Assembly: GCA_009760855.2 (NCBI GenBank) | Contig: WPIO01000173.1 | Location: forward strand, 283,501-347,500 | Origin: Cristatella mucedo | Lineage: Eukaryota; Bryozoa; Phylactolaemata; Cristatellidae | Reading direction: 5' to 3' | Length of the DNA stretch: 64,000 bases | Shown here: positions 1-60,700 of the stretch, piece after piece | Layout of the letters: every line of letters starts with the position of its first letter | How positions within the stretch are numbered: position 1 is the stretch's first letter | Program-made: the position numbers and the translations under genes | The notes under the pieces: generated by a model | Databases searched by the model: none | The model's input: only the letters and a program-made list of their open reading frames with translations | Told to the model about the DNA's origin: nothing

Positions 1-95
1 AAGTCACATTTGTCGTTCAAATGAAACTGACACTGCTGAGAAAACTAAATTGCTAAACTCTCTAGGAGGTATGCTAAAATTCAATTTGATTGTTA

Positions 96-440
96 CTGAC
101 TGTTGGCGACAGAAGCTTTAGTTCTGCTGGTCCTAGACTGTGGAGATCGCTTCCATAATTCTTATGCAATCACAACTGCTCTCCTACTGCCGACTGTGGC
201 TCATCTTTTTCAGCGGTCCTGAACTGCTACTTCTATGCTCCTCGCTACCTCAACTGCTCTCCTGACTCTGCTATCTGTCCCACATTCTCTATATTGCGTA
301 AGATGAAGTCTGTTGGCTACTGAATGCCTACCGGAAGCCGCTTAGGCTGTGAGTGAGCTATATAAAACTCTCCTGTGTAACACCCACACGGTCTGTATGA
401 CTTTGTGTAGTTACAGACGGAGATACATTACATTACATTA
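96..440 (+). mobile_element. LINE-B 3' end, truncated
   Basis: The segment begins at the sequence coding GDRSF-S-GPRLW, the usual C-terminal motif of CR1/L2-type ORF2. It runs through the family 3' region and ends at 440 in ACATT repeats. It matches the other LINE-B copies in the window (for example 28404-28634 and 42380-43172). Frame breaks show it is dead. Upstream (1-95) there is too little sequence to tell whether the copy extends further. Confidence 0.8.
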
Positions 441-963
441 TTTGCGGTTAAAGCAGATAGGCCCAAGCTGGTAAAGATACTGAGCACGCTACTTACACGA
501 ACCATACTCACTGCGGCAGTCGGTAATATTAAGTATAGCAGAGGGTAACCTACAAAATCCTCAGCATACGTGTAGCCAGAATATTTTTTTTTTATTCAAT
601 CATGTCCCATTGGCTTTGAAAGAAGTCTAACATAGTTTAGCTATGAGATTTTCTGATTTCAGTGGAAGTTCAATTCCATGATTTAGTTTCCACTGACCCC
701 AATATGCATACCACAACTTTGTTTAGTTCCGAATATGTGGCAGTACTGCGTAGCTGCAGTCTGTAACCGCACCAGACTGTCCAGTCATTTTGAAAACCAG
801 AATTGAACCTTACCTGACCTATTCTCGCAATGGCAGAGCAAAGGCAACTAGAGATGGTACTTTCTTTTATCGTTCTGATTATCCGTTTCATGATTGTTGC
901 CTGAGTTGCTGCTGATTTTGCTATTGTCCCTGATTTGCATCTAAACAGTTTTTTTGGGTTTAG

Positions 964-1118
964 CTAAACTGACGCCAGAATGCGACGGCAATCAGGATGT
1001 CACACATATTCAGCTGACTGGTTACGAGAGACGACTGCAATTACTGCAAGAGCTACAAAAGAAGCTGCGACATGAGGAAGGAAGGATTAATGTCGAGATT
1101 CAAAGTATTTACGATTAA
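964..1118 (+). CDS. Candidate terminal exon encoding a coiled-coil tail
   Basis: A T-rich tract ending in AG at 962-963 precedes an open frame that closes with TAA at 1116-1118. The frame gives about 51 residues ending YERRLQLLQELQKKLRHEEG plus a short tail. Leucines are spaced as in a coiled coil and charged residues are dense. The ERRLQ-LQEL-KKLR-EE pattern loosely recalls the coiled coil of p66/GATAD2 proteins, but this is weak and could be chance. No upstream exon was found. It lies on the same strand as the CARD exons further right; its stop codon argues against it being an internal exon of that gene. It could be the last exon of a separate gene or a fortuitous ORF. Confidence 0.35.
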
Positions 1119-1689
1119 ATCATTTTAGCTCACGTTTCAGATTTTGTTTCTAATTGCTCTTACTGGATGCAAACCTGGTGCTAGCTACAAGGTCCCTTCT
1201 TATGTTTCTTCTCGCTTAATCAGTTGAAAAATAGTTGCACTGTTTCCAGTTGAATCCAGCTAAGGGCGATGCTTTGAGAGGATTTATTTCATCATGTATT
1301 ACTAACTTCTATTTTTTGTATCTGTAATAGGCTTATTTAAGAATCCTCTATGACTCCCAACAGTCTTTTAGGTGAGTAGTAGAAGAGATACTACATGGCT
1401 AAACAGCATTTAGGATACTCGTTAGACTAATAATAAGATCAGAAGAATTCTCTCAAATAAATTTTTTTTGTTACAATTATTGTAATTTATTTAAAATATA
1501 AATCATTAAAATTATTAGTAAATCCCCATTCTGGTGTGGTACACTGGCTGCAAGAACATCAATGACGCAGGGTTTCCTTGTTTTGCTAAGGTGATTCGTC
1601 CTAGCCTTGGAAACATGAAGGTCAAGGGACATTACTTTTATGAACGTGGTGGTAAGCTTAAGCCCAGCTGGGTCTGCGATAAGCCTGAA
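1119..1689. other. Unassigned AT-rich gap
   Basis: No coding or repeat family was recognised. An AATAAA at about 1456 could serve as a polyadenylation signal for the candidate exon ending at 1118, but this is not demonstrated. Confidence 0.3.
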
Positions 1690-2848
1690 TTGAGATTAAA
1701 TTGAGATTCTTCTTAGAGTCCTTAGCATATAAATTACGTGTCGATTTTGATTATTGTCGATGCGATTTGCCTTAGCTTTGATCCCTCCCAGCCTTCTAGC
1801 ACCTCAAATTCTCTAAACTCACTTGCTGCATGCATTGATGACATCCGCACATGGATGGCAGCAAATTTTCTAAAACTGAACTATGACAAAACTAACTCAC
1901 TAGTTATGGGTAAACCCAGTGTGATTAACAATTTGGAAAGGCTGTCTCTCAAAATTAGCTCTGCCAGCTTATATCCTGTAGAATCAGCTCGAAATCTAGG
2001 TGTCATTTTCCAAAGCGACCGCTTGTTAGACGACCACATCAGCTCTACAGTCAAATATGCCTATTTTCAGCCTTATAACCTTGCTAAAATTCAGGCTTGT
2101 TTAGATCAGGATACCATGTCTAAGTTGGTACATGCATTTGTGACATCTCGTCACGACTTCTGACACTCACTGCTTACTGGCCTACCAGGATGTGCGATCA
2201 GGCGATTGCAGCTGGTGCAAAACTCTGCAGCTTGGCTTGTCTGTCGTGAGCATCGCAGTAGCCACATTACTCCTCTTCTCGCCGACCTGCACTGGCTACC
2301 AGTTAAGCAACGGATCGACTTCAAGGTTTCGTCGCTCACTTTTAGGTTCCTTCATTCTATGGCTCCAGCCTATCTCTCCGACATACTCCCCCATCAGGCC
2401 AAGCATCGTACCACCAGCTTTTCGGAATCCAACAGTCTAGAAATACCTCGTGAAAACCTTAAATCCTTTGGAGACCATGCATTTAGTTCGTATGCTTCCA
2501 AAGCCTGGAGCTCCCTCCGATCTGCGTCAGAACATCCCATGACCTGACCACATTTAAAAGGAACTTAAAAACACACCTATTTAGGACAGCCTTTAGTGGG
2601 TCCCTGTTTTCGTCCTTCACGTGCTTTTGCTTGCTGACACTGCATGCTGCCATTAACCACATTTGCATGCTGACCCTGTGCATGTCACCCCTAACCCTGT
2701 TATTCATTTTGATTGTTTTTCAAGCATGATTTTACTTACAATTCAATTGCATTTCCCTTTGCAGCAAATGTAAAGCGCCTAGAAAGAGATTAAGTTCTGT
2801 GAGGGCGCTTTATCAAGTACATTATTACTATTATTATTATTATTTTTT
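1690..2848 (+). mobile_element. LINE-A, 5'-truncated, RT C-terminal half to tail
   Basis: Homology to the RT begins around the degenerate YADD region. It continues through the C-terminal region (frame motifs [38 protein letters not shown]), the 3' UTR, the family hairpin and a tail of ATT repeats at about 2822-2846. The single ORF2 frame is broken near 2161 and again near 2540 by stops and frameshifts, so the copy is inactive. It matches the longer copy on the minus strand at 32053-33325. Confidence 0.9.
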
Positions 2849-2849
2849 G

Positions 2850-3589
2850 AAGCAGCCATATCAAAGCAAATAAGCTCTTTCTTAAGCAAACCCATTGCCT
2901 GTTTTTATCCGGTCCCCAATTGTATGTAATGCACTGAATAGTGCAAAGGTTGGTTCTAAAAAATCCAAGTAGATTAAAAAAGGTTCCATCGGCTTTCGGA
3001 AAGCTGATCGAAGCAAGTGATTATTGGGCTAAAACTTTACTACATTAGAGCTATCAAAATTCTTTATCACCCTGGAGTATTTATAGAAGTTTTAGGTTTG
3101 TTTGCTGCATACATCCTACAGCAGCATTCGGTAGCTCACTTTTGTGTTGTTACTGCCTCCCACCGTTTTTCTAGGTGCGGACAATGTACTGCATTCGGTG
3201 TGTAAATACAAAACAAGTTATTGGTTTTGTTAAGCCGTTGATGGCTAGCTGATTCAACTACTCAACCTATACTACTGGAAAATCAGTGCACATATATGCT
3301 ACTGATCTTTGTACCGTTATAACTTTAAAGCTTATGCAAGAGCAGTTGTTTTTCATGCTGATTGTATTCGTTGTGGTATTAGCTCACTTCCAAAACATCT
3401 TCTGAAAATCGACTGTTGACCGCTAGTGTGGTCCAATTTAAATTAGAAGTGGCAGTTCTGTCGTTCCAAATACAATGCTAGGCACTTAGTTATCATTGCT
3501 CAGTCTTTATAAGCATCTTAAATACAGCCGGTTAAATTTCTTCTCAGTAAATTCCGAGGCGTAGCATATCTGAGATTAGGCTATCCAGG
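2850..3589. other. Unassigned spacer between LINE-A and LINE-B
   Basis: No convincing coding or repeat signature was found. It may contain the eroded 5' part of the LINE-B copy whose endonuclease region follows. Confidence 0.25.
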
Positions 3590-6470
3590 AGAAGCTAGAT
3601 GTATGTCTACTAACCAAAACTTGGTCGACGCCCGGTCCGACTGCTGTACATCTGAAACCACCCCAATTGGGCTCTCATTCTTTCAATCCGTGCAATCTGA
3701 AAATACTGATGATAGGGTTTATTTTCATGCATGAATGTTTTGGCAATAAGACGTGCTTTGTTTTGCATTGGGAATGGTTCGGATCAGTTACAAACAGGTC
3801 CTCATTAGAGACATGCCTCCCACTGCTGTCCTATCCCGACCTCATATGGGCTGTCAGAACTTCTTTATAGATGAATTTCTGGATTTCCTTGATACAGTAT
3901 TTACCTGTGATAGGCCAACATTGATTACAGAAAAATTCACTATTCAAGCTGGCGACACTAGCAAAGGCTCCGCCCAGTCATATCTTGACTCTCCAAAAAA
4001 CTTTGGTTTAGTCCAATGCGTTTCTCATACCACTCACGTCGATCCGTATCTCGTTGTGGCTTAGGATTTATTCCTCACTGATCTTGTTTCATGACCACTT
4101 AACTCTCGGGTAATTTTTGGTCTCGTGTACTATATGTGATCCGTTGTGCACACGGCGTTAATTTGAGTTTGATGACAGTAGAATATAGTTATGACCAATA
4201 CAAATTTTGGAATCTGTAAGTGAGGCAGGTCTTTGTGGTCTGTGCCGAACTCAACGAAAGATTTGATGGCCTTGCAAACGAAGTGAACATAACAATTAGG
4301 AGTGCTCTTAGTGAGCTTGCTTCCGTTCATGCTGTTTTTATACAGATTCGAGGACATTCCTTTCAATTTAAAAAATAATGGAAAATATTCATCGTATTGT
4401 GCTTAGGCTTGAACGCCATCTTAAAAAAATTGGGTCTTATGAAGATCTAGTCAATGTCAAAGACTTTCTTTGAGTCTGCATCTGGGAGCTGAAGCTAACC
4501 AAGGCTTCCTTTTTTGCTTAAAAATTGAAGCCCTGGAGGTCAGATCCCAAACAGACTTATAAGACTGTAAATAAGGTGCTGAATTATTCTGATAGATCTA
4601 ATACCCCAAATAGTAACGGCAGGGCGAAAGGCTTCTAGCCTTCATTACTAAAGAGCATCACGGCCTCTAAAAAACTCCCTCTGACTGAAGCAATTGCTGA
4701 ATCACAACCTGTGAACTTCCTAAAATATTCGGCTAGGTTAGTATTTGCAATGTGGCTATCTAATTATGGTCGAGAAAAAATTAGTACATCTTCTGAGCAT
4801 CCTATACAATCATTGATATGGTCCTCAACGTCAGACCGACTTAGTTCAGCCATTCCTGAGGTTATATATGCTTGTCAGGCAAAAGCAGGTCGTACCGAAG
4901 AGCTTCAAATGGGCCATCGTCAGAAGCATATTTAAAAAGTCCAAGATTAAATAAGGAGGTGCTTGCATACTATCATCCAGTTTCATGTCTCCATCTTTTG
5001 TATAAATATACATGACAGAACTATCGCTGAGCGACTGATAGCACACATTGCATTGAATAAAGTATCAGAGAAATTTTGATCCATATTCCAGCGGCAGCAC
5101 TCCACTGAAACTGCTTTCCTCCGTTTAAGGAATAGCGTCGTATGAACCAACGATGATAGGAATGCCATAGCCCTTCAAGATCAATCAACTTCCTTCGACA
5201 AAATTGTTTGTGAGGTCCTACTTAAATGATTGACGGCAATAATCGCTCTGGCAGATAAGGCACTGCCGTGGCTTTACTCATACCTGTCAGATTGTGATCA
5301 ATCTCTGCCTCTAAGCTCATATCTTATTAGCAAGACTCAAGTCAATTGTAATTTGCCTCAAGGAATCGTCTTCGGTCAATCGCTGTTCTCAGTTTATAAT
5401 CAACCTTCGGGCAAGACATTTTGACCAATGGACTAAAATAATATGCTATGATGAAGATGCGAAGCTGTATTTTTCATTAAAACCTTGAGAATATGCTGCA
5501 GGGACTGATAAACTGAACACTTGCCTTGATGATACTTGCTCTTGGATTTCAGTAAGTTTCCCTGAACTAAACAATGATACAACTGAACGTCTGCTCCTCG
5601 GACACCCTTAGCTTGTGATTGAGCTAGAAGACTTCTCTTTGAATAGGCGATGCCGATGTGCGACCATCACCAACAATTAGGTATCGCCTTCGCTAGTTGC
5701 CCAAATTTATATACCTTTGTTCAGAAAAATGCTTCCAATGCTATCAATAATGTCCGTTTCCTATTTAAGATTAAGAATCGTCATCCGTGGCGTCCAGCGC
5801 AACATTTAAATACCTTCGTAGCTCTGTTGCAGCAAGATAATTGTAATTATTATTAGGCTGGTGTACCAAAAAGAACCACTAGGTCGCTGCAGCTGGCTGT
5901 GACTACGGCTGCAACACTAGTTTGCACTTCCCGGGTGTTCGACCGTGTGTCTTCTTTGCTAAACGAGCTAAGACGGCTGCCGGTTAATCAAGGTTACAGA
6001 GCCAAGTTCTTAAGCTGACCCAAAAGGCTCACCGTGGCTTTGCTCCGCCATACCTAGCTAAACTGCTGCACCATTTTCAGCCTCTTCGTGGCCTTAGATC
6101 CAGTGTTTACAAGAAATTAGCGGTTCCATCTTTCAACTTAAAAACCTTCGGCGACAGAAGCTTTTTGTCTGAAAGTCTTATATTTGGGAACTTACTTCTA
6201 CGATTCTTGAACAACGAAAACTACTCTCCTACTGCGGACTGTGGCGCATCTCTTCAAGCCGTCCGGAGCTGCTACTTTCACATTATTAACTATCTCACGT
6301 CTCTTCTTACTCTTTTATGCTTGCCACTTTGTATATTTCGTGGGGTGAAGTCCGTTGGCTACCGAATGAGTCCGGAAAATTGCTTTGCCTCGGTGTGGGC
6401 TATAAAAAATCTATTGCCTAAAACCTACGTAGTCTTTTTGGAGTTGGGAATGGAAAAAATAATAATAATA
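3590..6470 (+). mobile_element. LINE-B, near-complete but decayed (endonuclease + RT)
   Basis: This is the most complete LINE-B copy. An open segment at about 3790-4062 resembles the end of an APE-type endonuclease (LITEKFTIQAGD, then FGLVQCVSHTTHVDP). RT motifs follow in shifting frames: a remnant of the HSTETAFLRL region near 5100, a CNLPQGIVFGQSLFSVY block near 5350-5400 (the PQG-S motif), and the 3' ORF region near 6150. The 3' end lies near 6470 with an AATAAT-type run. Many stops and frameshifts make it a fossil. The EN-RT order is that of CR1/L2 elements, and divergence from other copies suggests it is older than the LINE-A copies. Confidence 0.75.
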
Positions 6471-6474
6471 ATAC

Positions 6475-6605
6475 AGTTCAGAGGCAGTAGAGCCTTACTA
6501 GCTGCGTCCACACTTGCAATTAAGGAACACCTGCTGCTAAATTTGAACCCAGCACCTTGGCCGTGAGGAGCACACACCTCACCTCCTGGGGTGTACCAGA
6601 AGGCT
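6475..6605 (-). mobile_element. tRNA-derived SINE, SINE-A-like
   Basis: On the minus strand a tRNA-like head has a GGTTCAAAT B-box-like sequence. A body follows with the same order of blocks as SINE-A copies (a cgcc/gcaagtg block, then a taaggctct block). It lies directly downstream of the LINE-B 3' end. It is diverged and truncated. Confidence 0.5.
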
Positions 6606-7307
6606 TTTTTAATAATGACCTCCTGCATTAGAGTAAGAAGCTGCAGGTGAGACTAAGTCGGCCAGTAAAACGTCCTGAATCGGTAGTGCAAACGCAGTAT
6701 CTAGGAGAGAAATGGGCAATGGCTATGAGGTCAATCTATTGTGTAAGTGCAGCCTTCATGACGTTCAGTCATAGGGTTGTCATCGTGCATGCCAAGCAAG
6801 GGTTCGAGCTCAACTGACTTTTCCTGCTACCGTAAATAGCTATCACTTTTACAAAAATTGCACTAGTCTAATAACGAGGCTGATTTAATTAATTTCTGAT
6901 TTAATCAACTACGGGCTTTCACAGTAGCAATTTGCTAGCCTGCAAGTGACAATCCAAACTTAAACATTTGCTAAACCTAAACTGCCTTAGATAGAGGCTT
7001 GGTTAGCCCAATCGTCACGTCTTAAGGAGCGAACTGAAAAATTGACTCCGGTGAGTATGACTCTCGAAATTCTCTACTATTCTGCTTGGAGATGTACTCG
7101 TTCCGGTGTGCTGAAATATCAACCGACCTTCCTGACAAGCAGCACATTTTGGGTTGGAAAGGACCACTACATGAAGTTGCAATTGTGACAGCCCTTCGCC
7201 AGTAATACGGTCCATACAGGCCACTCGTGCTTGGAGTACGAAAGGCTAAAATTTGCCATTTTTAATTATTTCTCGTTTACATCCAAACGTTTTGTCAATT
7301 TTTTTAG
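6606..7307. other. Unassigned DNA upstream of the CARD exon
   Basis: No recognisable domain was found. Short open stretches flanked by GT/AG-like dinucleotides (for example a CCG/GTGAGT at about 7049) occur, but no upstream exon of the CARD gene can be named with confidence. Confidence 0.25.
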
Positions 7308-7480
7308 AAATTCAATCTGTTTCGAGATCGACGCCAGCCGTCAGTAAAAATCTGCAGGATGCTATCCGAAGGTATCGCTCAGCTATAGTAGCAACACTAA
7401 CCAGTACGAAAGTGGCGGAAGCTGCATTGTATTTGCATAGAAAACTTACGCTAACTATCGAGGAGCTCGAAGAAATAGAG
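7308..7480 (+). CDS. CARD-domain gene, exon encoding the N-terminal half of the domain
   Basis: The exon is bounded by a strong polypyrimidine acceptor (T7 then AG at 7306-7307) and a GAG/GTAACC donor at 7480/7481. There is no in-frame ATG upstream, so it is an internal exon; it starts with two bases completing a codon and ends in phase 0. The 57 full codons include NLQDAIRRYRSAIVATL and LTLTIEELEEIE, which fit helices 1-3 of a caspase-recruitment domain, including the typical LT-EE-EEI turn. CARDs are death-fold modules for homotypic protein contacts in apoptosis and innate-immune signalling. The next exon (9758-9889) continues the domain in frame after an intron filled with LINE fragments. 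Partner domains (NACHT, caspase, helicase) were not found, so the protein class is unknown. Confidence 0.75.
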
Positions 7481-8044
7481 GTAACCGATTGAACAATTCT
7501 TTATACAATCCTCCCAAAATGTGAAGCTATATTGTAGGTCAAGCAGTGGGCTCAATGATGCCTTGCTATTTTCCTGGATATAACGCTGCCTACTTCAGCA
7601 GATTTGGCCTGCTGAGTGTCGTGTGCATGGATGTATACGCCTACCAGCTACTGCAGTTACTTCTGGCTGTGAAATTCAAGCAAAGCTATGATTAACCCTA
7701 TCATTAGCCTAAAGCATGAACCTTCTTATCTGCAATGCTATAAATCTTAAACATCAATAAAGTAGTTAAACTAAAGCATATACATGCCGAGTAGCTCATA
7801 CGCGATGATAAGTTACTAGCCCACCTTAGTTTAAATTGAGGTCCAATCGTCCTGTAAGTGATCCTAATGACTAGACTTTTTTGGCCGGAACGCTGCCACA
7901 ACTTTAACCGCAGCTTTCTAGTTTTATTCTTCTTGTTGCAACATTGTATTCTATCACGATATAGATTCAGATCTAATAAGTGACTTTGAATACAGTCGGC
8001 TTTTTGATTACCTTTTCATTTAGTCTGCCTTGAAAGGCCGTTTT

Positions 8045-8265
8045 CAATGTAACGTAATGTATCTCCTTCTGTATTTCCACAAAGCCTCAAAGACTTTTCG
8101 GGTGTTAGGCTGGAGAGTCTTATATAGCTCACTCATAGCCTAAGCGGCTTTCTTTACGCCAAAATTAGAGACATACTTCTTCTCACTCCGCAGAGAGAAA
8201 GTAAGAAGCATAGCTGCGTAATGAGAACCGTTGAGATAGTGAGTAAAACGAAAATACAGAAGCCA
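8045..8265 (-). mobile_element. LINE-B 3' fragment in the CARD-gene intron
   Basis: The minus strand matches the last about 220 bp of LINE-B, with a remnant of the terminal TAATGTA repeats at about 8051 and the conserved block around the TAACACCC hairpin. It is diverged and lies within the intron between the two CARD exons. Confidence 0.7.
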
Positions 8266-8599
8266 GAATGGTTGAATCAGATTTTCCTTAGCCAGCAGCA
8301 GGAGAGTAGTTGTCAGCACCTCCACAGCAAAAGCCGTTTCTGCACAGGCTCAGTTTTCTAACATGATTAGTAGAGCATGCATAGGGTCGCCATGCATGAT
8401 CATGTAAAGGACGAATCATAAGGACCGACTCAATGTAAAGATAAATGGTTGTGGCAAATAACATATAAATAATAAATAATAAATAAGTAAATATAAATGA
8501 TCGAGAAACTTTTAGTTTCATAATGTGGTCGATTCAGGTAATTTCGTGGTGCTAGTCGGATGTGAGTTTCAGCCTTTTGGATAAAAAACACGACCACCT

Positions 8600-9010
8600 A
8601 AGAGTTGAGACTCATACAAGGTACACGATAAGATTCAGGAAAGAAAGTGGTGCTAAACTTAGCTAGGTTCAGAAGTAGATTAGATAGGTAGGCTAGAACC
8701 AAAGAATGAAAAGTCCTAAAAGTGAGTGACACAACATTTGAAGTCGATGCGTTGCTTGACTGGGAGCCAGTGTAGGTCGGAGAGAATTGATGCGAGGTGA
8801 CCATTACAAAACTCGCGACAGGCAAGAATAGCTTCAGAGTTTAGCACAAGCTGTAGTCTCCTGGTTGCACAAGCAGATAGACCAGCAAGCAGCGAATTAC
8901 AAAAGTCAAGACGGGATGTCACAAAGTTAGATTTGGCATTCATGGCTAAGCAAGCTCGAACCATGGTGATGTTATATAGCTGAAAATAGCCATTTACTAA
9001 TTTCACCTAC
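8600..9010 (-). mobile_element. LINE-A internal fragment in the CARD-gene intron
   Basis: The minus-strand translation shows LINE-A RT C-terminal motifs ([27 protein letters not shown]). Neither the 3' UTR hairpin nor the ATT tail is present, so both ends have been lost. The reading frame is split. Confidence 0.75.
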
Positions 9011-9059
9011 AGATACGATAAAAGAGGGGAGTTACTTAACCAAGATCTGCTTTTTTGAT

Positions 9060-9310
9060 TAGCTATTAACGACCTGGAGCACTTTTGACTCGTCAACGGA
9101 TACCGATTTGAGGGCTTGTGCTGTCCTACAAAGCTATCTCTGGCTTAGCTCTTTCGTAACTTGCTGAACTGCTCTGCAAGTTTGAGTATCGTCGTGCCAT
9201 CAGGTTATCTCTGAAAAATACGTAAGCTGTTCCATTTCTTCCCTTCAAAACCGTTTGCAACTAGTTCAGGAGAGTTTAAAGAGATCAGAGACTTCACAAT
9301 TACTCTGATT
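9060..9310 (+). mobile_element. Possible LINE-B remnant
   Basis: Blocks resemble the LINE-B region before the GDRSF motif (compare 5990-6130), including a degenerate 'GYR...YKA..GLA' frame and an 'LAELL' equivalent. Divergence is high and the boundaries are approximate. Confidence 0.35.
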
Positions 9311-9365
9311 TGTAGGGTGTTTTTGCAAGTTAAGATATACAGTTATGAAGTTAATGAGATATACA

Positions 9366-9420
9366 AATAATAATAAGTTAATAATAAGTTAATAATAAGT
9401 TAATAATAATAATAATAAGA
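9366..9420 (+). repeat. TAA-rich microsatellite
   Basis: Imperfect repeats of AATAATAAGTT and TAA units form a short low-complexity tract within the CARD-gene intron. Confidence 0.8.
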
Positions 9421-9757
9421 TATACAGTTATGAAGATAATACAGTCATGAATTCCTGACAAGTACTGAGTTCATGAGTTCAAATTTAATTTGATGGAGCT
9501 TGAACGCAACTGCTAGTTCGATAAACGGCTGTTCTTAACATTTATGGAACAGTAACTGTTGCATAATAATTCTGTAAAACCTAGTTTTGTAATTCTTTTA
9601 CGTTGCCTCTATCTGAATATTTAACGATGCAATGTCTTATAGCAACTTGACATTACAACGTGTTCAGACAACTCTTGAATGTGTGCTAGTCAGAGAAATC
9701 TCCTGTCGACAATCTCTGGGTTAAGTTTTTCTTATCCTCAGCCTGTTTGTTTTGTAG

Positions 9758-9889
9758 AAAGAGCTCACACGTTCAAAACGAGTTAGTAAACTCTTGGAAT
9801 GCTTACGAACGAAGGGAGAAAAGGGAGCTGAGACATTTGTTGCAGCTCTTCGGTGCTGTGAAGAAGATGACCTTGCAGATGAGATTGAG
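9758..9889 (+). CDS. CARD-domain gene, exon encoding the C-terminal half of the domain
   Basis: The exon has a pyrimidine-rich acceptor ending TTTGTAG (AG at 9756-9757) and a strong donor GAG/GTGAGT at 9889/9890. It is exactly 44 codons, phase 0 on both sides, so it joins the 7308-7480 exon in frame. It reads KELTRSKRVSKLLECLRTKG and then FVAALRCCEEDDLADEIE. This matches helices 4-6 of CARDs: the S-R-V--LLE-L--KG segment, the F--AL segment and the terminal DLA--I. Together the two exons give about 100 residues, the expected CARD length plus a short leader. A CARD split across two exons by a phase-0 intron is typical of animal genes. The 2.3-kb intron contains LINE-A and LINE-B debris. No downstream exon was identified before 12 kb, so the rest of the protein is unknown. 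Confidence 0.8.
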
Positions 9890-10679
9890 GTGAGTGTGCT
9901 GAAGTAATGAGTTTTCATCTGTTTATGTCAAGTGATCCTTCGGCTATTGATCACTCGTGAGTCTCTAGTAAGCTAATCCAGGTAATTTTAGGGCTCGTGA
10001 TTTTTGATGTTTCTTAAACGGTTGAGCCTACCTAAGTCGCATGCGAGTTAGCTCTAATTATTATACGGCGATCGATTCCATCTGCAGCTCCAGTAAGTAA
10101 TAGTAGACTAGTCCGGCTGATTCAAGTGGGAATGATCCCAGATGAGCCCAGCTAACTTACTACTTGGTGTATCTGCAATTAATAAGCTCAGATGCTTGTT
10201 TAGTTAGCAAGCCCAGATGAAAGTCTATACCAGCACGACAAAACATTTTCCCAAGCGCTTAGTGGCAATAATTCAATTTTAAAGAGCAGCATAATAATCC
10301 ACTTGCTTAGCACCTTTAAATGACATTCTCCATTTTAAACTTTAAAACTCAAGATGAGAGGTTCGCTAAATTTGTGTTACTTGCAAGATCTCGATCAAAG
10401 ATTCAAAAGCATACCAGTAACGTCATTGTGCTAAAATAATCATGGTACTCCTAGCTATCGGTTAGGATGACCTCCTGCAAGTAAACTGTTCGGAATCACG
10501 GCCAGGTACACAGGCAAAGTGCATCGGAACCAAAAACAAGGATGTCGACTAGGGCGAAGAGATGCTTACCAGAATATATGGGATTTTGGTTGTAACTAAA
10601 ATGATGCCATGTCAGTGCAAGCACTGATCAAAGTTAGAAGCTAGCTCAATATTTTCGCTTTATACTAGCAGTAACCTCG
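9890..10679. other. Unassigned DNA downstream of the CARD exon
   Basis: It should be intron or flank of the CARD gene. No further exon with convincing splice sites and sequence was recognised. Confidence 0.3.
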
Positions 10680-11640
10680 ATTAGCAAAGATTTCAAATGA
10701 GTTCTGAAGGCGGAAGGAGTGTATAGATTCTACGGATCTGGGGGGCACCGTCGACGAGATAAGCAGTCGGATGCATAGGCTGGTGAAAGGCGATGAAATG
10801 AATTGTAGGCTGGATGCAGAATCTCGAACTGAATCCTATGCTTGATTATAAGCCACTAACGCTCAGACATAAGTATTTCTTAGCGAGAGTTTTTTGAGAA
10901 TCAGAGCTCCGGAATATGCCAAAGAATTTGCAGTTATAAACCGTCACTTATAAGTTCGGAAGTATTACCAGCCAGTCAATTATGCCGTAACAGCATGCAT
11001 AATAATTATTCTGGACACACACTGCTTGTGATAGTAGGTCACTGATAACTTTGAAATTTACTCTTTTTTCCAGAATTCTTTGACAGCCGTCGCAGACTTG
11101 AGCAAGATAATAGAAATACCTACAAGTGAGTGACAGAAACATTTGGTTAATATGCTGCTTAAACCAGAGCTATAAGGCTTGGGTAATTCGAGGCATTGTG
11201 TGTGCAGTTGCCAAGTTCGCTGCAGACAGGCCCAGCCTCTGAGTTGTGTACCATCTGTAAGTACCTATATCTAAAGAAAGAGGACCTGCCAGTCGCGACC
11301 CAGAAGCGAATTTAAAACAGCTTGTTGCAAATTTATGGAGCTCCTTGGCTGTTTGTCATTGTCCAAATATGGTATGAAGTTTTGGAATCGGTCATGGCTG
11401 GAGGTCGGGAGACATAATTAAGGAGCTCTTGCACTTTTCCATTTTTAAGTGATTTCAAAGAAGAGCATCCATTTCGTTGGAATGCTATGGAGTGTGCTGG
11501 TAAAATTTAATGGTTTGGTGAAACATATTAATTATATTTTCATAAAATTCTCAGAGAACTCCCTTTGATCCCAAGCAATGCACTCAGCAATATCCGTAAT
11601 ATGATTAAATAGTGCCTTTAGAGAACATCTGTCTTGGCAC
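10680..11640 (-). mobile_element. Ancient LINE-A-like fossil
   Basis: The minus strand aligns loosely with the LINE-A C-terminal region: the block equivalent to the [13 protein letters not shown] coding sequence, followed by the equivalents of 'chitpll-dlhwlpv' and 'lsltfrsl'. No long frame remains. It is much more diverged than the other LINE-A copies, so it is an old copy or a related subfamily. Confidence 0.5.
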
Positions 11641-11927
11641 TTGACAGGTACAGTAAAAGTAGTATTAGCAGGTTTCAATGTAATCAAGCATACTATAACT
11701 TAAGATAGCATACATAATATGCTGATTCAATCTTCATTTAGTCTGAGAAATTTTAAATTTTCCCAATATTTAACGTAAGCACTAACCACTGCAAGGGACA
11801 TTACATGGTCTTTTGTACAACTGATCTCTAGGGAATGATCAAATTTAGGAATTTTTATTGCATGAAAATTTATTTATGTACTATCGACATATACAGATAA
11901 AGCAATAAGTGATGAGATCTGATGGCA

Positions 11928-12090
11928 CACTAGGTAAGATGGCTGGTTTTCACGACCTTGGTTACGATGTCATGGATTCGAATCTTGCAGTGGACGAATC
12001 GTTATCGCCACTGCAAATGTGCTGATAGCCGTATAGGCTCTTCCAATGCTATGCAAAAGAGGCTGTTAAATCAGCTAGTATTTGGTCAGC
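11928..12090 (+). mobile_element. SINE-A copy
   Basis: A tRNA-like head has the B box GGATTCGAATC. It is followed by the family body (ATCGCCACTGCAA, GATAGCCGTATAGGCTCTT) and the 3' end GGCTGTTAAATCAGCTAGTAT. It is the same family as 24411-24592. No gene product is expected. Confidence 0.8.
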
Positions 12091-12664
12091 CGATCCAAAG
12101 CTGCATTTATGCAGCAGTAGATGTGCCCCGGCTGCTATATGCTATAATTTGGCAAAGAAGAAAGGACCTACCTCAAATTATTAATACTAACTGCTTTACT
12201 GCTGTCGGTTGAGTTTAATTCACTGAAAGCATTTAGATTCTTCCGACCTAATCCCAGAACTGGAAGTCACCTGACAAAAGGGTTTTTATAAGATGCAGGG
12301 ACGAGATCTGAGGTTTAACAACTATTTAACCAGCCTCGAAGGAAAGATTTTTATTCAGAGGGGAAGGATTGGCATACATTTTATTTCGGAATTTATAATT
12401 TTGAAATTTCGTGAGGTTTCTAATTTATCTACATATTACTGCCCTACAATAGCTTGTAATGTAATAAATGAAGAAATGAAGCCTTACTGGCTGCTATCGG
12501 AAAGTTATCAAGCAACGGGAAAAACAAATTATAGTACCGAACAATGCAACGGAGTTCAAGAATAAAGCGAAGTTGAATATTTGCATGTGCTAACATTTCA
12601 TTATTCTCGCTCAGTGACGAAAAACTTTGCAGATCAACAGTTTTTGCATCAATGTTCACGGAAG

Positions 12665-12765
12665 AGGCCGCGTGTTCAAATATTGCCGGGTGAATCTTTT
12701 CTTGCCTACTGAAAGCTGTGGTGATAGCTGCTAAGGCTCTTCGGCGGCTGTGGAACTGAGACGAT
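12665..12765 (+). mobile_element. SINE-A remnant
   Basis: A short block with a B-box-like GTGTTCAAAT is followed by the family sequence GTGATAGCTGCTAAGGCTCTTC. It is diverged and lacks both ends. Confidence 0.45.
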
Positions 12766-12804
12766 TGAAGTAGCCAGTAACATTAATAAACATGAGAGTG
12801 AAAA

Positions 12805-13745
12805 AGTTATATTATGAGGGTAGGAGGCTATCAATTCTTTCTCTAAAGCCTATCTCTAAGATCTGCTCCCCCACCGGGCCAAACATCGCACCACCCAATT
12901 TTCAGAATTCAACAGTTTACCAATACCTCATACAAACCTCAAATCCTTTGGAGGCCGTGCGTTTAGCTGGTAATGTAATGTAATGTAATGTATCGCCGTC
13001 AGTGACTCCACAAAGGCAAAAAGACCATGTGGGTGTTACGCAGGAGAGTTTTGTATAGCACACTCACAGCCTAAGCGGCTATCGGTACGCATTCGGTAGC
13101 CAACAGACTTCGTCTCACGCAACAAAGATAAAGTGGGAAGCATAGCAGAGTTAGGAGAGCAGTTGAGGTAGTGAGTAGCATAGAAGTAGCAGTTCAGGAC
13201 CGCTGAAAAAGATGCGCCATAGTCGGCAGTTGGAGAGTAGATGTCGTTGTGTAAGAATTGTGGAAGTGAGTTCCAAAGTCTAGGACTTGCAGAGCTAAAG
13301 CTTCTGTCGCCAACTGTCTTTAAGCAGAGGAATGGGACAGCTAATTTATTGTCCACACAGGACCAGAGGGCATGAACAGGCTGAAACTGATGCAGCAGTT
13401 CATGCTCACAAAGCCTGGAACGTCCTCCCGTCTTGCATCAGAACAATTACTGACTTGACCAAATTTAAAAATAATTTAAAAACATAATTATTTAGGAGAG
13501 CATTTAGTGGGTCCCTGTTGTTCGTTCTTCCTGTGCTCATGTGCGCTGACACTGTGCATGCTGCCACTAACCACATTCGCACGCTGACCCTGTGCATTTC
13601 ACCCCCACCATGTTATTCATGCTGTTTGTCAAGCACAATTTTAGTCACTATTCATTTGCGTTTCTCTTTGAAGCAAATGTAAAGCACCTAGAAAGAGATT
13701 GAGTTCCCTGAGCGCACTTAATCAAGTGCAATTGCCTAAGCGATG
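12805..13745 (+). mobile_element. LINE-A copy split by a LINE-B insertion
   Basis: The left part (12805-12970) codes the region around ISKICSPTGPNIAPP and SNPLEAVRLA, equivalent to the LINE-A segment before [10 protein letters not shown]. The right part (13399-13745) resumes at the KAWN-LP region and runs through the 3' UTR to the hairpin and the end of the family. Between them lies a minus-strand LINE-B 3' end. Removing it brings the LINE-A sequence back into register, so it is one older LINE-A copy. Confidence 0.75.
12971..13398 (-). mobile_element. LINE-B 3' portion inserted in LINE-A
   Basis: The minus strand begins (right side) in the region coding LAVPFLCLKTVGDRSFSSAS-RLWNSLP, continues 106 open codons, and ends at the left in TAATG/ACATT repeats at 12971-12992. 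The frame is unusually well kept for a LINE-B copy in this window. It is 5'-truncated and interrupts a plus-strand LINE-A, so LINE-B was still mobile after that LINE-A had landed. Confidence 0.8.
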
Positions 13746-32046: not shown

Positions 32047-32345
32047 GACAAAACCTTGAAGTCAATCCGTTGCTTGACTGGTAGCCAGGTCGGTGAGAAG
32101 TGGAGTAATGTGGCAACTGCGACGCTCACGACAGACAAGCCTAGCTGCAGAGTTTTGCACCAGCTGCAATCGCCTGATCGCACATGCTGGTAGGCCAGTA
32201 AGCAGTGACTTGCAGAAGTCGAAACGAGATGTCACGAATGCATGGACCAACTTGGACGTGGTATCTTTATCTAAACAAGCCCAAATTTTAGCAATGTTAT
32301 GAAGCTGAAAATAGGCAGATTTGACTGTGGAGCTGTTATGGTCGT

Positions 32346-33320
32346 CTAACGAGAGGTCGCTTTGGAATATGACACCAGATTTCGAGCTGATTCCACCGTA
32401 GATATACTGGCAGAGCCAATTTTGAGAGTCAGCCTTTCCAATCTCTGGATCACACTGGGTTTGCCCATAACTAGTAAGTTAGTTTTATCATCGTTGGATT
32501 TTAGAAAATTTGCTGCCTTCCACGTGTGGATGTCATCAATGCATGCAGCTAGTGAGTTTAGAGAATTTGAGGTGCTCGAAGGCTGGGAGGGATCAAAGCA
32601 AAGGTATAACTGAGTGTCATCTGCATAGAAGTTAAAGCCTAGATTGTGCTTGGTAATCACATCAGCAAGAGGCAGAGTATAAACCGTGAACAGAACCGGA
32701 CCTAGCACTGAGCCCTGAGGTACTCCATATTTCAGAGGTACTTCAGATGATCTTTGTCCATTCACGTCAATACTCTGGAGTCTCCCACTGAGATAGGACC
32801 TGAACCACTGCAGAACAGTGCCAGTGATGCCCAGGCGAGATGAGAGACGCTCTAGAAGAACTTTGTAATCTATGGTTTCAAAAGCTGCCGAAATATCAAG
32901 CAAAACAAGCAGAGACACTCTACCCATGTCTGCATTCTTAAGTAGGTCGTTGTATACCCGAAGCAATGCTGACTCTGTGGAGTGGTTAGCTCTAAAGCCA
33001 GACTGGAACTTACTAGCAAGGTGTGAGGTTTCGATATACGAGTTCAGCTGGTCGGCTACGACCCGTTCGAGTATCTTTGATAGGAACGGTAGAAGGGAAA
33101 CTGGGCGGTAGTTGCTCAAGTTCTCTTGGTCAAGTGTAGCTTTCTTGAGAAGTGGCCTGACTACAGCTTTTTTGAAAGGTACTGGGACATGACCTGAGGC
33201 TAATGACATATTAATTATGTTAGTTATGCATGGCAGCAGTAGATTAATGCAACGTAGGAGCAGGACAGTAGGAATAGGGTCCACAGGACTTGTTGTCTTC
33301 TTTGATTGAGATATGAACAT
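32346..33320 (-). pseudogene. LINE-A ORF2 reverse transcriptase, partial
   Basis: 324 open codons encode an L2/CR1-type reverse transcriptase that copies element RNA at a nicked target. Motifs in order: SPVDPIPT (residues 11-18), NYRPVS (70-75), [14 protein letters not shown] (about 107-120), [12 protein letters not shown] (141-152), [10 protein letters not shown] (199-208) and the catalytic FYADD (231-235). The two YADD aspartates are present. After [13 protein letters not shown] the frame is lost to a single-base deletion near 32380, and the C-terminal part continues in another frame to about 32053. The N-terminal RT and the endonuclease are missing through 5' truncation. It is a retrotransposon pseudogene, not a host gene. 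Confidence 0.9.
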
Positions 33321-33329
33321 GAGTTGTGG

Positions 33330-34395
33330 GCGTGACGACTACAGCTGCATGATTTGCAGGCGACACAGCAGGTGACCATATATACTCATGCGTATTAATC
33401 GTCGCATAAGCCACCTTGGAGTGACGAAGAGAGAAGGGGAAAGAGAATAGCATCTGTATAGGTGGTGTCACAAGACCCAGCTGGCCATTGGCAAATACAT
33501 CGAGCTTAGTTAACCAATATGGCTGGACGGCCGTGCCTAATGAGCTGATTGCAGCATGCTGGTTGGTCCGGGGACTGTTGCGAGTCCGGCTGGTCAGAAT
33601 AACAGCCGGAAAGAGGTAAGTGGATAGCAACTGTGAAAGGCGTGGTCTTTTATGGAGACCCGATTGCACTTTATTCAAACGACGGGCAATGCAAAAAACG
33701 CACATCTTTAAAGCCAAGCGATTCGCGAACAGCCGCTGCAACCCTGCCGCCCACCTTTCAGTCAGCTCGGATAAAAATAATGAGAGGGTTGGTTGACGGT
33801 CTCAGATTGACGGACACTAAAGCAGGGTGTCATAATCGTCTCTCCCAGCATAAATAACGGTGAACATAGCAATAATAATAATACGTTTCTGATATCGCCC
33901 TCAGAGAACTTGTCATTTTACATATGAATGCATCTAGCTTCCCCTGGACGGCCTAAACGTGGATAAGTAGCCCTTCAACCGCAACTCAGCTTTTAGCAGC
34001 AGGCGACAAGCCAGAACTGCTTGATTGCATGGCTACACTGACCCGTAGAAGGCCGACCCGGATGTGCCGACCGACTAGCTTACAATGTGCTGAAATTTTA
34101 TTGGCCGGACTTAAAAGGCTGTCCACTAACTGGGTGACGTCGTCAAAGTAACTTTATTAATAGGCAACCGGCAGCCAGCCCTGCAGACGCTGCCACTACA
34201 CATTTATAATGAATCGTTATAGTAATAAGAATAATAATGATAATGCATTTGTATAGCATCCTCAGAAAACTCAATCGTAGGCGGTGCCAACGCATTAAGC
34301 ACATCAGCAAGTCACGTGCAGTTATATTACTGCCGACGGTTAGCCTTTCGCACCATGCTGATGGGCAGTGATTGAGCTACTACTATGGCAATTAT
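33330..34395. other. Mostly unassigned region with LINE-A crumbs
   Basis: 33868-33925 and 34226-34290 look like minus-strand LINE-A 3' tips (TAATAATAA followed by CGCCCTCAGAGAACT-like sequence). A 165-codon minus frame (33244-33741) overlaps the end of the LINE-A and has no recognised domain. An AGAG/GTAAGT at about 33616 could be a splice donor but lacks context. Confidence 0.3.
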
Positions 34396-47537: not shown

Positions 47538-48390
47538 CGTATAGGCCGGTTGCAAAAGTCCATTTTTCGTAGGGTCAGTAGTCGTAGATTCAATAGTCGC
47601 ACAACCCTCAGGTCACTGTGCTTGGTCCGGTTCTTTTCAAGTTTTATAATCTTTCTCTGATTGATATGTAGACGATAATTAGGTGTATCTAGGATTTCTT
47701 CGATCCCTCCCAACCCTCAAGTACGTCGAAATGTCTCACTCCCTTGCTGCATGTATTGATGAAATCCACACATGGAAAACACATTTTTTTTAAATTGAAG
47801 GATGATAAAACAGACTGATTTGTTATTGGCAAACCAAGTGTGATTAAGAAAATGCAAAAGCCAGCGCTCAAAATTTACTCTGCCACTATATTCCGGTTGA
47901 GTTGGCACGAAATCTAGGTATCATGTTCCTAAGGGACCTCCGGTTAGACGACCACATCAGCTCCACAATCAAGTCTGGATACTTTCAGCCACGTAGCATT
48001 GCTCAAATTTGGGCTTGCTTAGTCAAGGATACCACATCCAAGTTGGTCCATGCATTTGTGACGTCCCCTCTCGACTTCTGTAAGTCACTGCTTACTGGTC
48101 TACCGACCTGTGCAATAACAAGCTTACAGGTTGTGCACAACTCAGCAGTTATTTGCCGGTCGCAAGCGTCGCAGTTGACACACCACACCACTTGTCGCCG
48201 ACCTCGACTGGCTACCAGTCAAGCAACGGATTGACTTCAAGGTTTTGTCGCTCACTTTTACGTCCCTGCATTCTATGGCTCCAGCCTATCTCTCAGATAT
48301 ACTACCCCGTCCGGCCAAGCATCGTACCACCTGCTTTTCGGAATCCAACAGTCTACAAATACCTCGTACAAACCTTAAATCCTTTGGCAA
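46655..48390 (+). mobile_element. LINE-A copy split by an 820-bp DNA element
   Basis: The left piece (46655-46785) codes the end of the RT fingers region, just before the PQGSVLGP motif. The right piece (47606-48390) continues exactly there and runs through LAACIDEIHTW, ARNLGIMFLRDLRLDDHIS, HAFVTSPLDFCKSLLTGLP and SDILPRPAKHRTTCFSESNS. It stops abruptly near 48390, where unrelated GC-rich sequence begins. The duplicated CCTCAGGTC marks the insertion point of the 46786-47605 element. Confidence 0.85.
46786..47605. mobile_element. Non-autonomous DNA transposon with 9-bp target duplication
   Basis: The ends are imperfect inverted repeats of about 75 bp: the left begins GGTGTGCAGACAATTGAA and the reverse complement of the right begins GGTTGTGCGACTATTGAA. 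Both reach a shared CGGCCTATACGACAAT. The arms are built from degenerate short units (GACAATTGGCC-like), and the right arm holds a second copy plus a (TA)n tract (47503-47533). The flanks carry the direct repeat CCTCAGGTC (46777-46785 and 47606-47614). A 9-bp duplication fits Mutator-like elements; no transposase is visible. Short frames near 47019-47286 are probably not genes. Confidence 0.8.
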
Positions 48391-49197
48391 GCTTTGGCTT
48401 GCAATCCTTTGCCCCGAGGGAGTGCAGCAAGACGGGCACCGAGCTGAGCAGCTGGAGACCAGCAAGGCAAAGCGATGGAGGTGACGATGCAGTCATTTCA
48501 GTGCAGTCGCTGGAGGACGGCCAAGCAGTTATAGGCTTGTGGCACTCACGGCTGGTAGTACTTCTCAGACAGAGCTATGTTGCTGCAGCTGATGAAACGG
48601 CCCCAATCCAGTGGCATGAGGAAAGACGTGTGGCTGTGCTGCAGTCACTTCCCAGAAAGCTGTATGTGCATGGCGACCGGCTTGCTGTGGCTGAGGGAAG
48701 TTTGACTGAGGATAGAACCTTGATGCCCGGCCCAGGGCTGCAGCACCTGCAGCTGAGCCCAGGGCTGCTGCTGTACAGCAGGATCTACGAGTATAACATC
48801 CGGAGTGTGTCTCTCACTGCTGCCACTGTGGTAACAACGAGCTGCAGCCGTGTGAAGCTAGAAGGTAGCCGCGAACTGTACGTCGTGGACAGCCACAGCT
48901 ACCGAGGTTAGCTGTGACGAGGAAGTATGGGGCATCTGGGCAGCAGGAGACATTCTGTATATGGCTATAGTAGGGCTCTGGAAAGACATCGGCTGCCATA
49001 GCGTGAGGGCTCTCAGTGCAAAGACTCGACAGTTGCTTCAGCAAGTCATCTCTTTCAGCAGTCAAGGACCACGGCTAACTGCATACCTGTCAGGGAGCAG
49101 AGGACAGAAGACCCTGATAGCTGTGCTGAGCAAAGTTGAGGAGATAAACTACTGGGGCAAGGTGACCGTGCACTCTGCGTTAGCAGGCTGCAACTGA
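48391..49197 (+). pseudogene. Coding-like sequence of unknown function, one frameshift
   Basis: Right after the broken LINE-A edge, a GC-rich frame runs to 48911 and then appears to continue in the next frame to a TGA at 49195-49197. It has VISVQSLEDGQAVIGLWHSR, RRVAVLQSLPRKLYVHGDRL, LLLYSRIYEYNIRSVSL, then SCDEEVWGIWAAGDILYMAI and KTRQLLQQVISFSSQGPRL. The amino-acid make-up (regular beta-type hydrophobic alternation, Trp, Leu-rich) and codon use (many CTG, CAG, AGC) look genuinely coding. The frames join near 48908 if one base is shifted. No domain is identified with certainty; a beta-propeller-like fold is only a guess. It is followed by a (GA)n tract. It may be a processed host gene, a cargo gene of a mobile element, or a broken exon. 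Confidence 0.45.
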
Positions 49198-60070: not shown

Positions 60071-60700
60071 TTAAACAGCAAACCCTACAATCCAAAACCC
60101 TTAACCCTAAACCGTAAAAACTATAAAGTCTAAACCCTAAACGCTAAACTTAAGAACCTAAAAACCTTAATCCTAAATTATAAATCCTACACACTGAACG
60201 ATAAACCATAAACCCTAAACAAACTAAACCCAAAGTTGAAATTGTTAACCCTAAAACCCTAAACGCTAAACTCTAAAGCCTAAAAATCCTAAACCCTAAA
60301 ACCCTATAATAATAATAACGATGCACTTGATAAAGCGCCCTCAGAGAACTCAATCTCTCTCTAGGCGCTTTAGATTTGCTGCAAAGGGAACTGCAATTGA
60401 ATGGTGAGTGATATCATGCTTCATAAACAAACAAAATGAATAACATGGTTAGGGGTGACATGCACAGGGTCAGCATGAAATGTAGTTAGTGGCAGCATGC
60501 ACAGTGTCAGCACGCATAAGCACATCAAGGACGAATCGCAGGGACCCGCTAAATGCTGTCCTAAATAGGTGTGTTTTTAAGTTCTTTTTAAATTTGGTCA
60601 GGTCAGGGGATGTTCTGACGCAGGTCGGCAGAGAGTTCCAGGCTTTAAACCCTAAACCCTAAACACCAAACCCTAAAACCTTAACCCTGAACCATGTAAC
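60071..60700 (+). repeat. Degenerate CCCTAAA (telomere-like) repeats split by LINE-A
   Basis: From about 60071 to 60306 and again from 60645 to about 60700 the sequence is made of imperfect AACCCTAAA units (7-8 bp; ACCCTAAA, CCTAAAC, ACGCTAAA variants). The unit equals the TTTAGGG telomere heptamer in reverse. The array is internal and mutated, so it is not a working telomere. Confidence 0.8.
60306..60644 (-). mobile_element. LINE-A 3' end inserted in telomere-like repeats
   Basis: An ATAATAATAA tail, the intact hairpin, the 3' UTR and the last codons up to the [10 protein letters not shown] region. CCCTAAA-type sequence resumes at once on the other side. It is 5'-truncated and fairly well preserved. 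Confidence 0.9.

Follow-up and report, generated by a model that had tools for sequence, protein, structure and literature searches.

CARDs are commonly regarded as conserved signalling plugs. Described genes that carry them include the CARD caspases and NLRs, known across animals (PMC11508797, in the part available to us), and the RIG-I-like receptors of lophotrochozoans, which have N-terminal CARDs, have expanded in tandem and show positive selection, tested on the RNA-recognition domain according to section 2.6 (PMC8998645, likewise in the part available). Among the open-licence papers listed, judged by title and the start of the abstract, and in the same parts of these two articles, we found no description of a CARD family comparable to the one reported here. 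In the window, i.e., the whole 64,000-nucleotide stretch of a Cristatella mucedo contig (labelled C81) that was analysed, two exons encode the CARD of a gene that belongs to a family spread by segmental and tandem duplication, and this duplicated family is very probably under diversifying selection. Duplication and selection were both missed by the original prediction of a CARD gene at this locus, because the rest of the genome is needed to see them.

The first exon, exon a (7308–7480, plus strand, 173 nt), comes after a pyrimidine tract and AG (...TTTTTTTAG up to 7307) and borders on the donor GTAACC from 7481; its phase is 1 at the start and 0 at the end, and it is also found in the paralogs. 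Exon b (9758–9889, plus strand, 132 nt) lies between the acceptor TTTTGTAG and the donor GTGAGT and is in phase 0 at both ends. Read from 7308, exon a runs into stops; its first two bases close a codon split by the phase 1 intron, so that the open frame starts at 7310. With this frame, the junction of the two exons is stop-free and in phase 0, as had been proposed together with the positions and splice sites of both exons, and the joined product (7310–7480 plus 9758–9889) comprises 101 residues, with the CARD interrupted after residue 57 by an intron in phase 0.

The joined protein bears out the expectation of a full CARD over the two exons: it matches Pfam CARD (PF00619) with E = 1.6e-11 (44.5 bits, curated cut-off 23.9), residues 17–101 covering profile positions 2–83 of 85, and CARD_2 with E = 2.9e-7 (30.8 bits, cut-off 28.2). 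Taken singly, exon b matches Pfam CARD at 3.1e-5 and exon a has no match. A search of solved structures with the single sequence gave weak matches throughout, the best being a designed protein (0.011), BCL10 (0.041) and RAIDD (0.065). With a profile of six family members, RAIDD was found at 2e-5, with BCL10, RIPK2 and CED-3 chains also ranking high, and chains of RAIDD, BCL10, RIPK2, CED-3 and NLRC4 filled ten of the top 12 places among 46 sequences, with designed proteins in the other two. When the locus was scanned, without any protein model, for open frames and splice sites that are kept among paralogs, exon a came out at the top in the 5′ part and exon b at the top in the 3′ part; the scan also returned 11074–11125, discussed below, and weaker candidates such as 6600–6646. 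The window exons thus almost certainly encode a real CARD.

The intron between them (7481–9757) had been read as colonised by two LINEs. It carries two multi-copy insertions, at 8046–8314 and 8632–8926. The second is probably LINE-derived, since part of it resembles window positions 32126–32299, which adjoin a reverse transcriptase frame; the first is seen as a multi-copy stretch only. The adjoining frame (32349–33338, minus strand, 330 aa, RVT_1 at E = 9e-29) is the longest among the listed open frames of at least 100 aa in the window. Two overlapping open frames of 275 and 111 aa at 48084–49197 (plus strand) are without a Pfam match, and the longer one starts, by eye, within LINE-like sequence. 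At 60080–60306 and 60646–60693, in the interior of the contig, there are degenerate AAACCCT-like tandem repeats, which we take to resemble telomere-type units. A search of the window against Rfam and a BLAST search of the LINE against plasmids gave no match.

A search of the host assembly (572 Mb in 688 contigs) with the joined CARD returned at least 37 matches at E ≤ 10. The majority correspond to one exon or the other with a break near residue 57; exceptions are a CARD-caspase frame on C111 and a match on C660. The first CARD exon has at least 22 matches on 15 contigs, part of them weak. This tally combines 20 matches from the joined-CARD query with C180:102420 and C194:109180 from a second query, and it omits C111 and C660. 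With the joined query, six of the 20 had E > 1 (two on C49, and C26:920550, C148, C357 and C150), and C26:367197 and C313 scored between 0.01 and 0.1. The second query recovered the C49 match at 944 kb, C148 and C357 at 1e-5 or better and the C49 match at 18.7 kb at 0.015; C26:920550 and C150 were included on a weak match plus common splice phases. Eighteen of the 22 matches were inspected by reading, i.e., all except C313, C357, C180:102420 and C194, and the pairs C26/C313 and C148/C357 may be alleles or assembly duplicates. The host mitochondrial COX1 has 11 in-frame TGA codons and gives a normal protein under the invertebrate mitochondrial code.

A second copy on the same contig, C81b (214475–216926), lies 76 kb upstream of the window copy, and C131 carries a tandem array of three copies spaced 10.7–10.9 kb apart. 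The window block 6474–12811 (plus strand) aligns to the C81b, C131 and C218 loci through the introns, at about 79–90% identity in the main pieces, and these shared blocks are broken by insertions at differing places in differing copies. Beyond exon a, the diverged C180 and C148 copies have little in common with the pieces of the window, C131 and C218 that they were compared with, indicating that the frame and phases of this exon outlasted the flanking introns. What was predicted as a host gene does carry a genuine CARD, yet it does not stand alone: it is one copy of a duplicated family.

Comparison of the copies revealed an excess of amino acid changes in the CARD. Pairwise counts gave dN > dS in 38 of 43 exon-wise comparisons (12/15 for exon a and 26/28 for exon b), a set of pairs that includes the damaged copies C678 and C26. 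The two-exon codon tests used the window copy, C81b, C218, C80 and the C131 copy at 40 kb, to which C206 was added in the six-copy and lineage tests, all six being free of visible damage in the CARD exons; C655 and the diverged copies did not enter them, and the near-identical C131 copies and C313 were dropped from all codon tests. The five-copy test yielded a dN/dS of 2.42 (p = 2e-5), and the six-copy model over 101 codons a dN/dS of 2.65 (2dlnL 23.9, p = 1e-6 against 1). Each exon also exceeded 1 when analysed alone (exon a, 1.80, p = 0.01, six copies; exon b, 2.84, p = 3e-4, eight copies), in tests that retained the damaged C678 for exon a and C26 for exon b. Comparing M1a with M2a on the six copies (2dlnL 54.5) assigned 52% of sites to a class at 5.7. 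Twenty-five sites had a posterior above 0.95, and 18 of them fall in positions 32–67, an interval picked after the sites were known, so that any p-value for their clustering is to be discounted. We take these positions to be CARD helices 2 to 4, which bear the CARD–CARD contacts. In statistical terms, the six copies show the CARD to be under strong diversifying selection, both in the family and in the window lineage.

The latter point bears on a different reading of the locus, in which the window copy would be a dead or dying piece of a gene, 6.3 kb long, with its first exon and 3′ part cut off by repeats and its frames intact because it is young. Homology to the paralogs indeed stops at repeats on both sides: a multi-copy repeat (5966–6040 and 6061–6440) followed by an (AAT)n tail spans 5966–6473 (plus strand), the tail stopping where paralog homology starts at 6474, and further multi-copy repeats (12834–12972 and 12975–13733) lie directly beyond the 3′ limit at 12811. 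Start exons were not found, and several relatives are damaged. Exon a of C678 is hit at both of its splice sites and has lost the donor, exon a of C26 has a stop and a frameshift, the C131 relative at 197 kb has a stop in exon b and the C49 relative at 944 kb is without the usual donor; to judge from this damage, birth and death of CARD copies are probably ongoing. In the window copy, however, both exons are open with intact splice sites, and its lineage alone has a dN/dS of 4.31 (p = 0.003 against 1), where a long-dead copy would be expected at 1. This result rejects long neutral decay, although the loss may be recent. Only the window lineage and that of C206 (6.19, p = 0.025), two of six, are above 1 at p < 0.05; C131 (3.00, p = 0.079), C81b (1.89), C80 (1.50) and C218 (1.23) are indistinguishable from 1, and giving any one of the six lineages a separate ratio brought no significant gain in fit (2dlnL at most 2.53). 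We consider a dead or dying fragment a serious contender, albeit the less probable reading.

The limits of the encoded protein were sought by comparing paralogs. In the 1.8–1.9 kb upstream of three of them, a search for a conserved ATG and donor revealed no start codon and no upstream coding exon, and a comparison of C180 and C148 over 3.5 kb of upstream sequence showed no further shared exon; what these two have in common with C81b there is exon a and repeats. Within 204 kb around the window (C81:183501–387500), the window copy has no counterpart of the 5′ segment (C81:211773–212721) or the 3′ segment (C81:219990–221795) of C81b. A GC-rich stretch is kept downstream of two CARD paralogs (C81:220563–221795 and C131:34763–33441); it looks coding by eye on the opposite strand and may be a neighbour gene within the same duplication, and it too lacks a counterpart for the window copy in C81:183501–387500.

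On the 3′ side, an unspliced exon b would end after an 18-nt tail (9890–9907, plus strand) that reads VSELK-stop in the family and VSVLK-stop in the window, with the stop at the same place in 10/10 aligned copies. The first 15 nt after exon b have one change in eight copies, compared to 0.95 minor letters per site further downstream, where two of 209 windows are equally conserved. Alternatively, exon b may be spliced to a candidate exon c (11074–11125, plus strand, 52 nt, phase 0 in and phase 1 out, NSLTAVADLSKIIEIPT), whose acceptor and donor are kept in the window, C81b and two C131 copies; C81b has a stop codon in it, and the C218 sequence compared ends before it. C126 and C660, two relatives of weak similarity, have a CARD exon that reads straight on to a stop codon. 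Together with the conserved stop of the tail, this somewhat favours a small protein with the CARD at or near its C-terminus, reached via VSELK-stop or via the short exon c.

Partner domains had been expected for this CARD. We scanned the three plus-strand frames, read through stops, of window positions 6001–35402 and 1–5950 and of the 4 kb to the left of the window, as well as nine selected window ORFs, against Pfam; above the cut-off, the scanned frames contained only reverse transcriptase matches, and the expected partners were not among them. The three coding-strand frames of two paralogous regions, C131:33001–51000 and C81:203501–223500, gave retroelement domains above the cut-off plus one DUF7041 (C81 near 204.1–204.4 kb), which precedes the CARD of C81b by ∼10 kb and lies near a reverse transcriptase match, in the same frame. 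The region C81:203501–213500 upstream of C81b contains a retroelement (reverse transcriptase, RNase H, integrase zinc-binding and the DUF7041 match). BIR, helicase and NACHT had no match in the scans of window positions 1–5950 and 6001–35402 and of the 4 kb to the left. In single-frame scans even the exon b CARD stayed below its own cut-off, and several of the other matches below cut-off lie in simple repeats.

Genome-wide searches led us to reject three identities for the window gene. An NLR is disfavoured by the lack of NACHT at E ≤ 0.001 among 28 candidates, which were scored exon by exon, so that absence from the genome is not proven. A RIG-I-like receptor does not fit a genome whose single RIG-I_C-RD (PF11648) match is on C77, and the local scans gave no helicase match. 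A CARD-caspase is contradicted by the distribution of Peptidase C14, whose 30 matches genome-wide all lie outside C81 and the other contigs of the family; CARD and caspase occur together in single long open frames on C518 and C111. Two further CARD matches in long single open frames were seen on C44 and C376; one of these frames has 640 aa, including a long run of glutamines, and the other 1050 aa.

The CARD could still belong to a large protein, a receptor or enzyme of the NLR, RLR, caspase or IAP type, with its other exons further off. It is entered after a phase 1 intron, so that coding sequence must precede it, and the donor of exon b is strong. Against such a large protein stand the NACHT, RIG-I_C-RD and caspase results, and the coding-strand scans, in which no host partner domain appeared and the DUF7041 near C81b is the sole unassigned match over cut-off. 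We therefore regard a large CARD protein as improbable.

In our view, alignment errors, gene conversion or slow introns are very unlikely to have produced the selection signal. The exons are short, the copies few and the codon likelihood code home-made and validated on introns only, and dS ranges widely between pairs (0.02–0.35). Insertions, moreover, inflate some flank distances, those 5′ of exon a in C81b and 3′ of it in C131, which makes these distances unfit as a measure of neutral divergence. However, the exon alignments are almost gap-free, the result is unchanged between the intron tree and the exon tree, and dS and intron divergence are of the same order. Three intron control frames from the same copies gave ratios near 1 under the same code (1.15, 0.87 and 1.23, none significant), and tree length is 2.79 per codon for the CARD compared to 1.47–1.53 per triplet for these controls. 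Raw letter counts show a modest excess in the exons, with 0.73 minor letters per site in exon a versus 0.42 upstream (four copies) and 1.09 in exon b versus 0.95 in the 3′ intron (eight copies). That the copies are transposable-element cargo rather than an ordinary duplicated gene family is scarcely credible: many contigs carry copies and retroelement pieces lie near those examined, but the shared blocks contain introns and have insertions at different places in different copies, and the C131 copies stand in regularly spaced tandem.

For the duplicated and selected family, we propose a small protein that would bind other CARDs and serve as an adaptor, a competitor or a decoy, candidate partners being, e.g., the CARD-caspases of the same genome. 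As the fast sites lie mostly in what we read as helices 2 to 4, where CARDs meet, selection probably acts on whom the CARD binds. The driver would be either escape from pathogen proteins directed at CARDs or a need to insulate the duplicates from each other, and the substitution pattern hints at an arms race or a rapid rewiring of immune or cell-death signalling. An immune or cell-death function through CARD–CARD binding is, on present evidence, an even call, and so is the account as a whole, i.e., a selected, duplicated CARD family whose small, CARD-ended protein acts by such binding. Rather doubtful is a hypervariable repertoire of about 20 small-CARD copies in a genome without detected NACHT, in which selection would continually alter the binding faces of decoys, of direct binders of pathogen proteins or of mutually insulated signalling pairs. 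A family whose CARD is itself pushed to evolve beyond the neutral rate would allow a direct test, by pairwise binding of the copies, of whether pathogen interference or the insulation of duplicates drives death-fold specificity.

Compared to the CARD domain family (PF00619), the window gene has a full-length match, and each of the six proteins joined from the paralogs hits both CARD and CARD_2 at E ≤ 0.01; in contrast to that family, the domain is here split in phase 0 after residue 57, with the donor lost in C678 and in C49 at 944 kb, and has a dN/dS above 1 across its length. With the CARD-caspases C518 and C111 it shares the CARD, and they are possible predicted binding partners, whereas they are single open frames with a caspase and the family contigs have no caspase match. 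Like the lophotrochozoan RIG-I-like receptors, as far as the available part of PMC8998645 describes them, these are invertebrate CARD genes in tandem duplication with evidence of positive selection; unlike them, the window CARD has no helicase or RIG-I C-terminal domain nearby. As with CARD-only proteins such as ICEBERG and the ranavirus CARD (PMC4457926, PMC3775265, in the parts available), the search for a partner domain of the window CARD gave none in the stretches covered here. In contrast to these two, the CARD described here, known from its CARD exons only, belongs to a duplicated family with a dN/dS above 1, and like them its product would be a possible competitor for CARD–CARD contacts.
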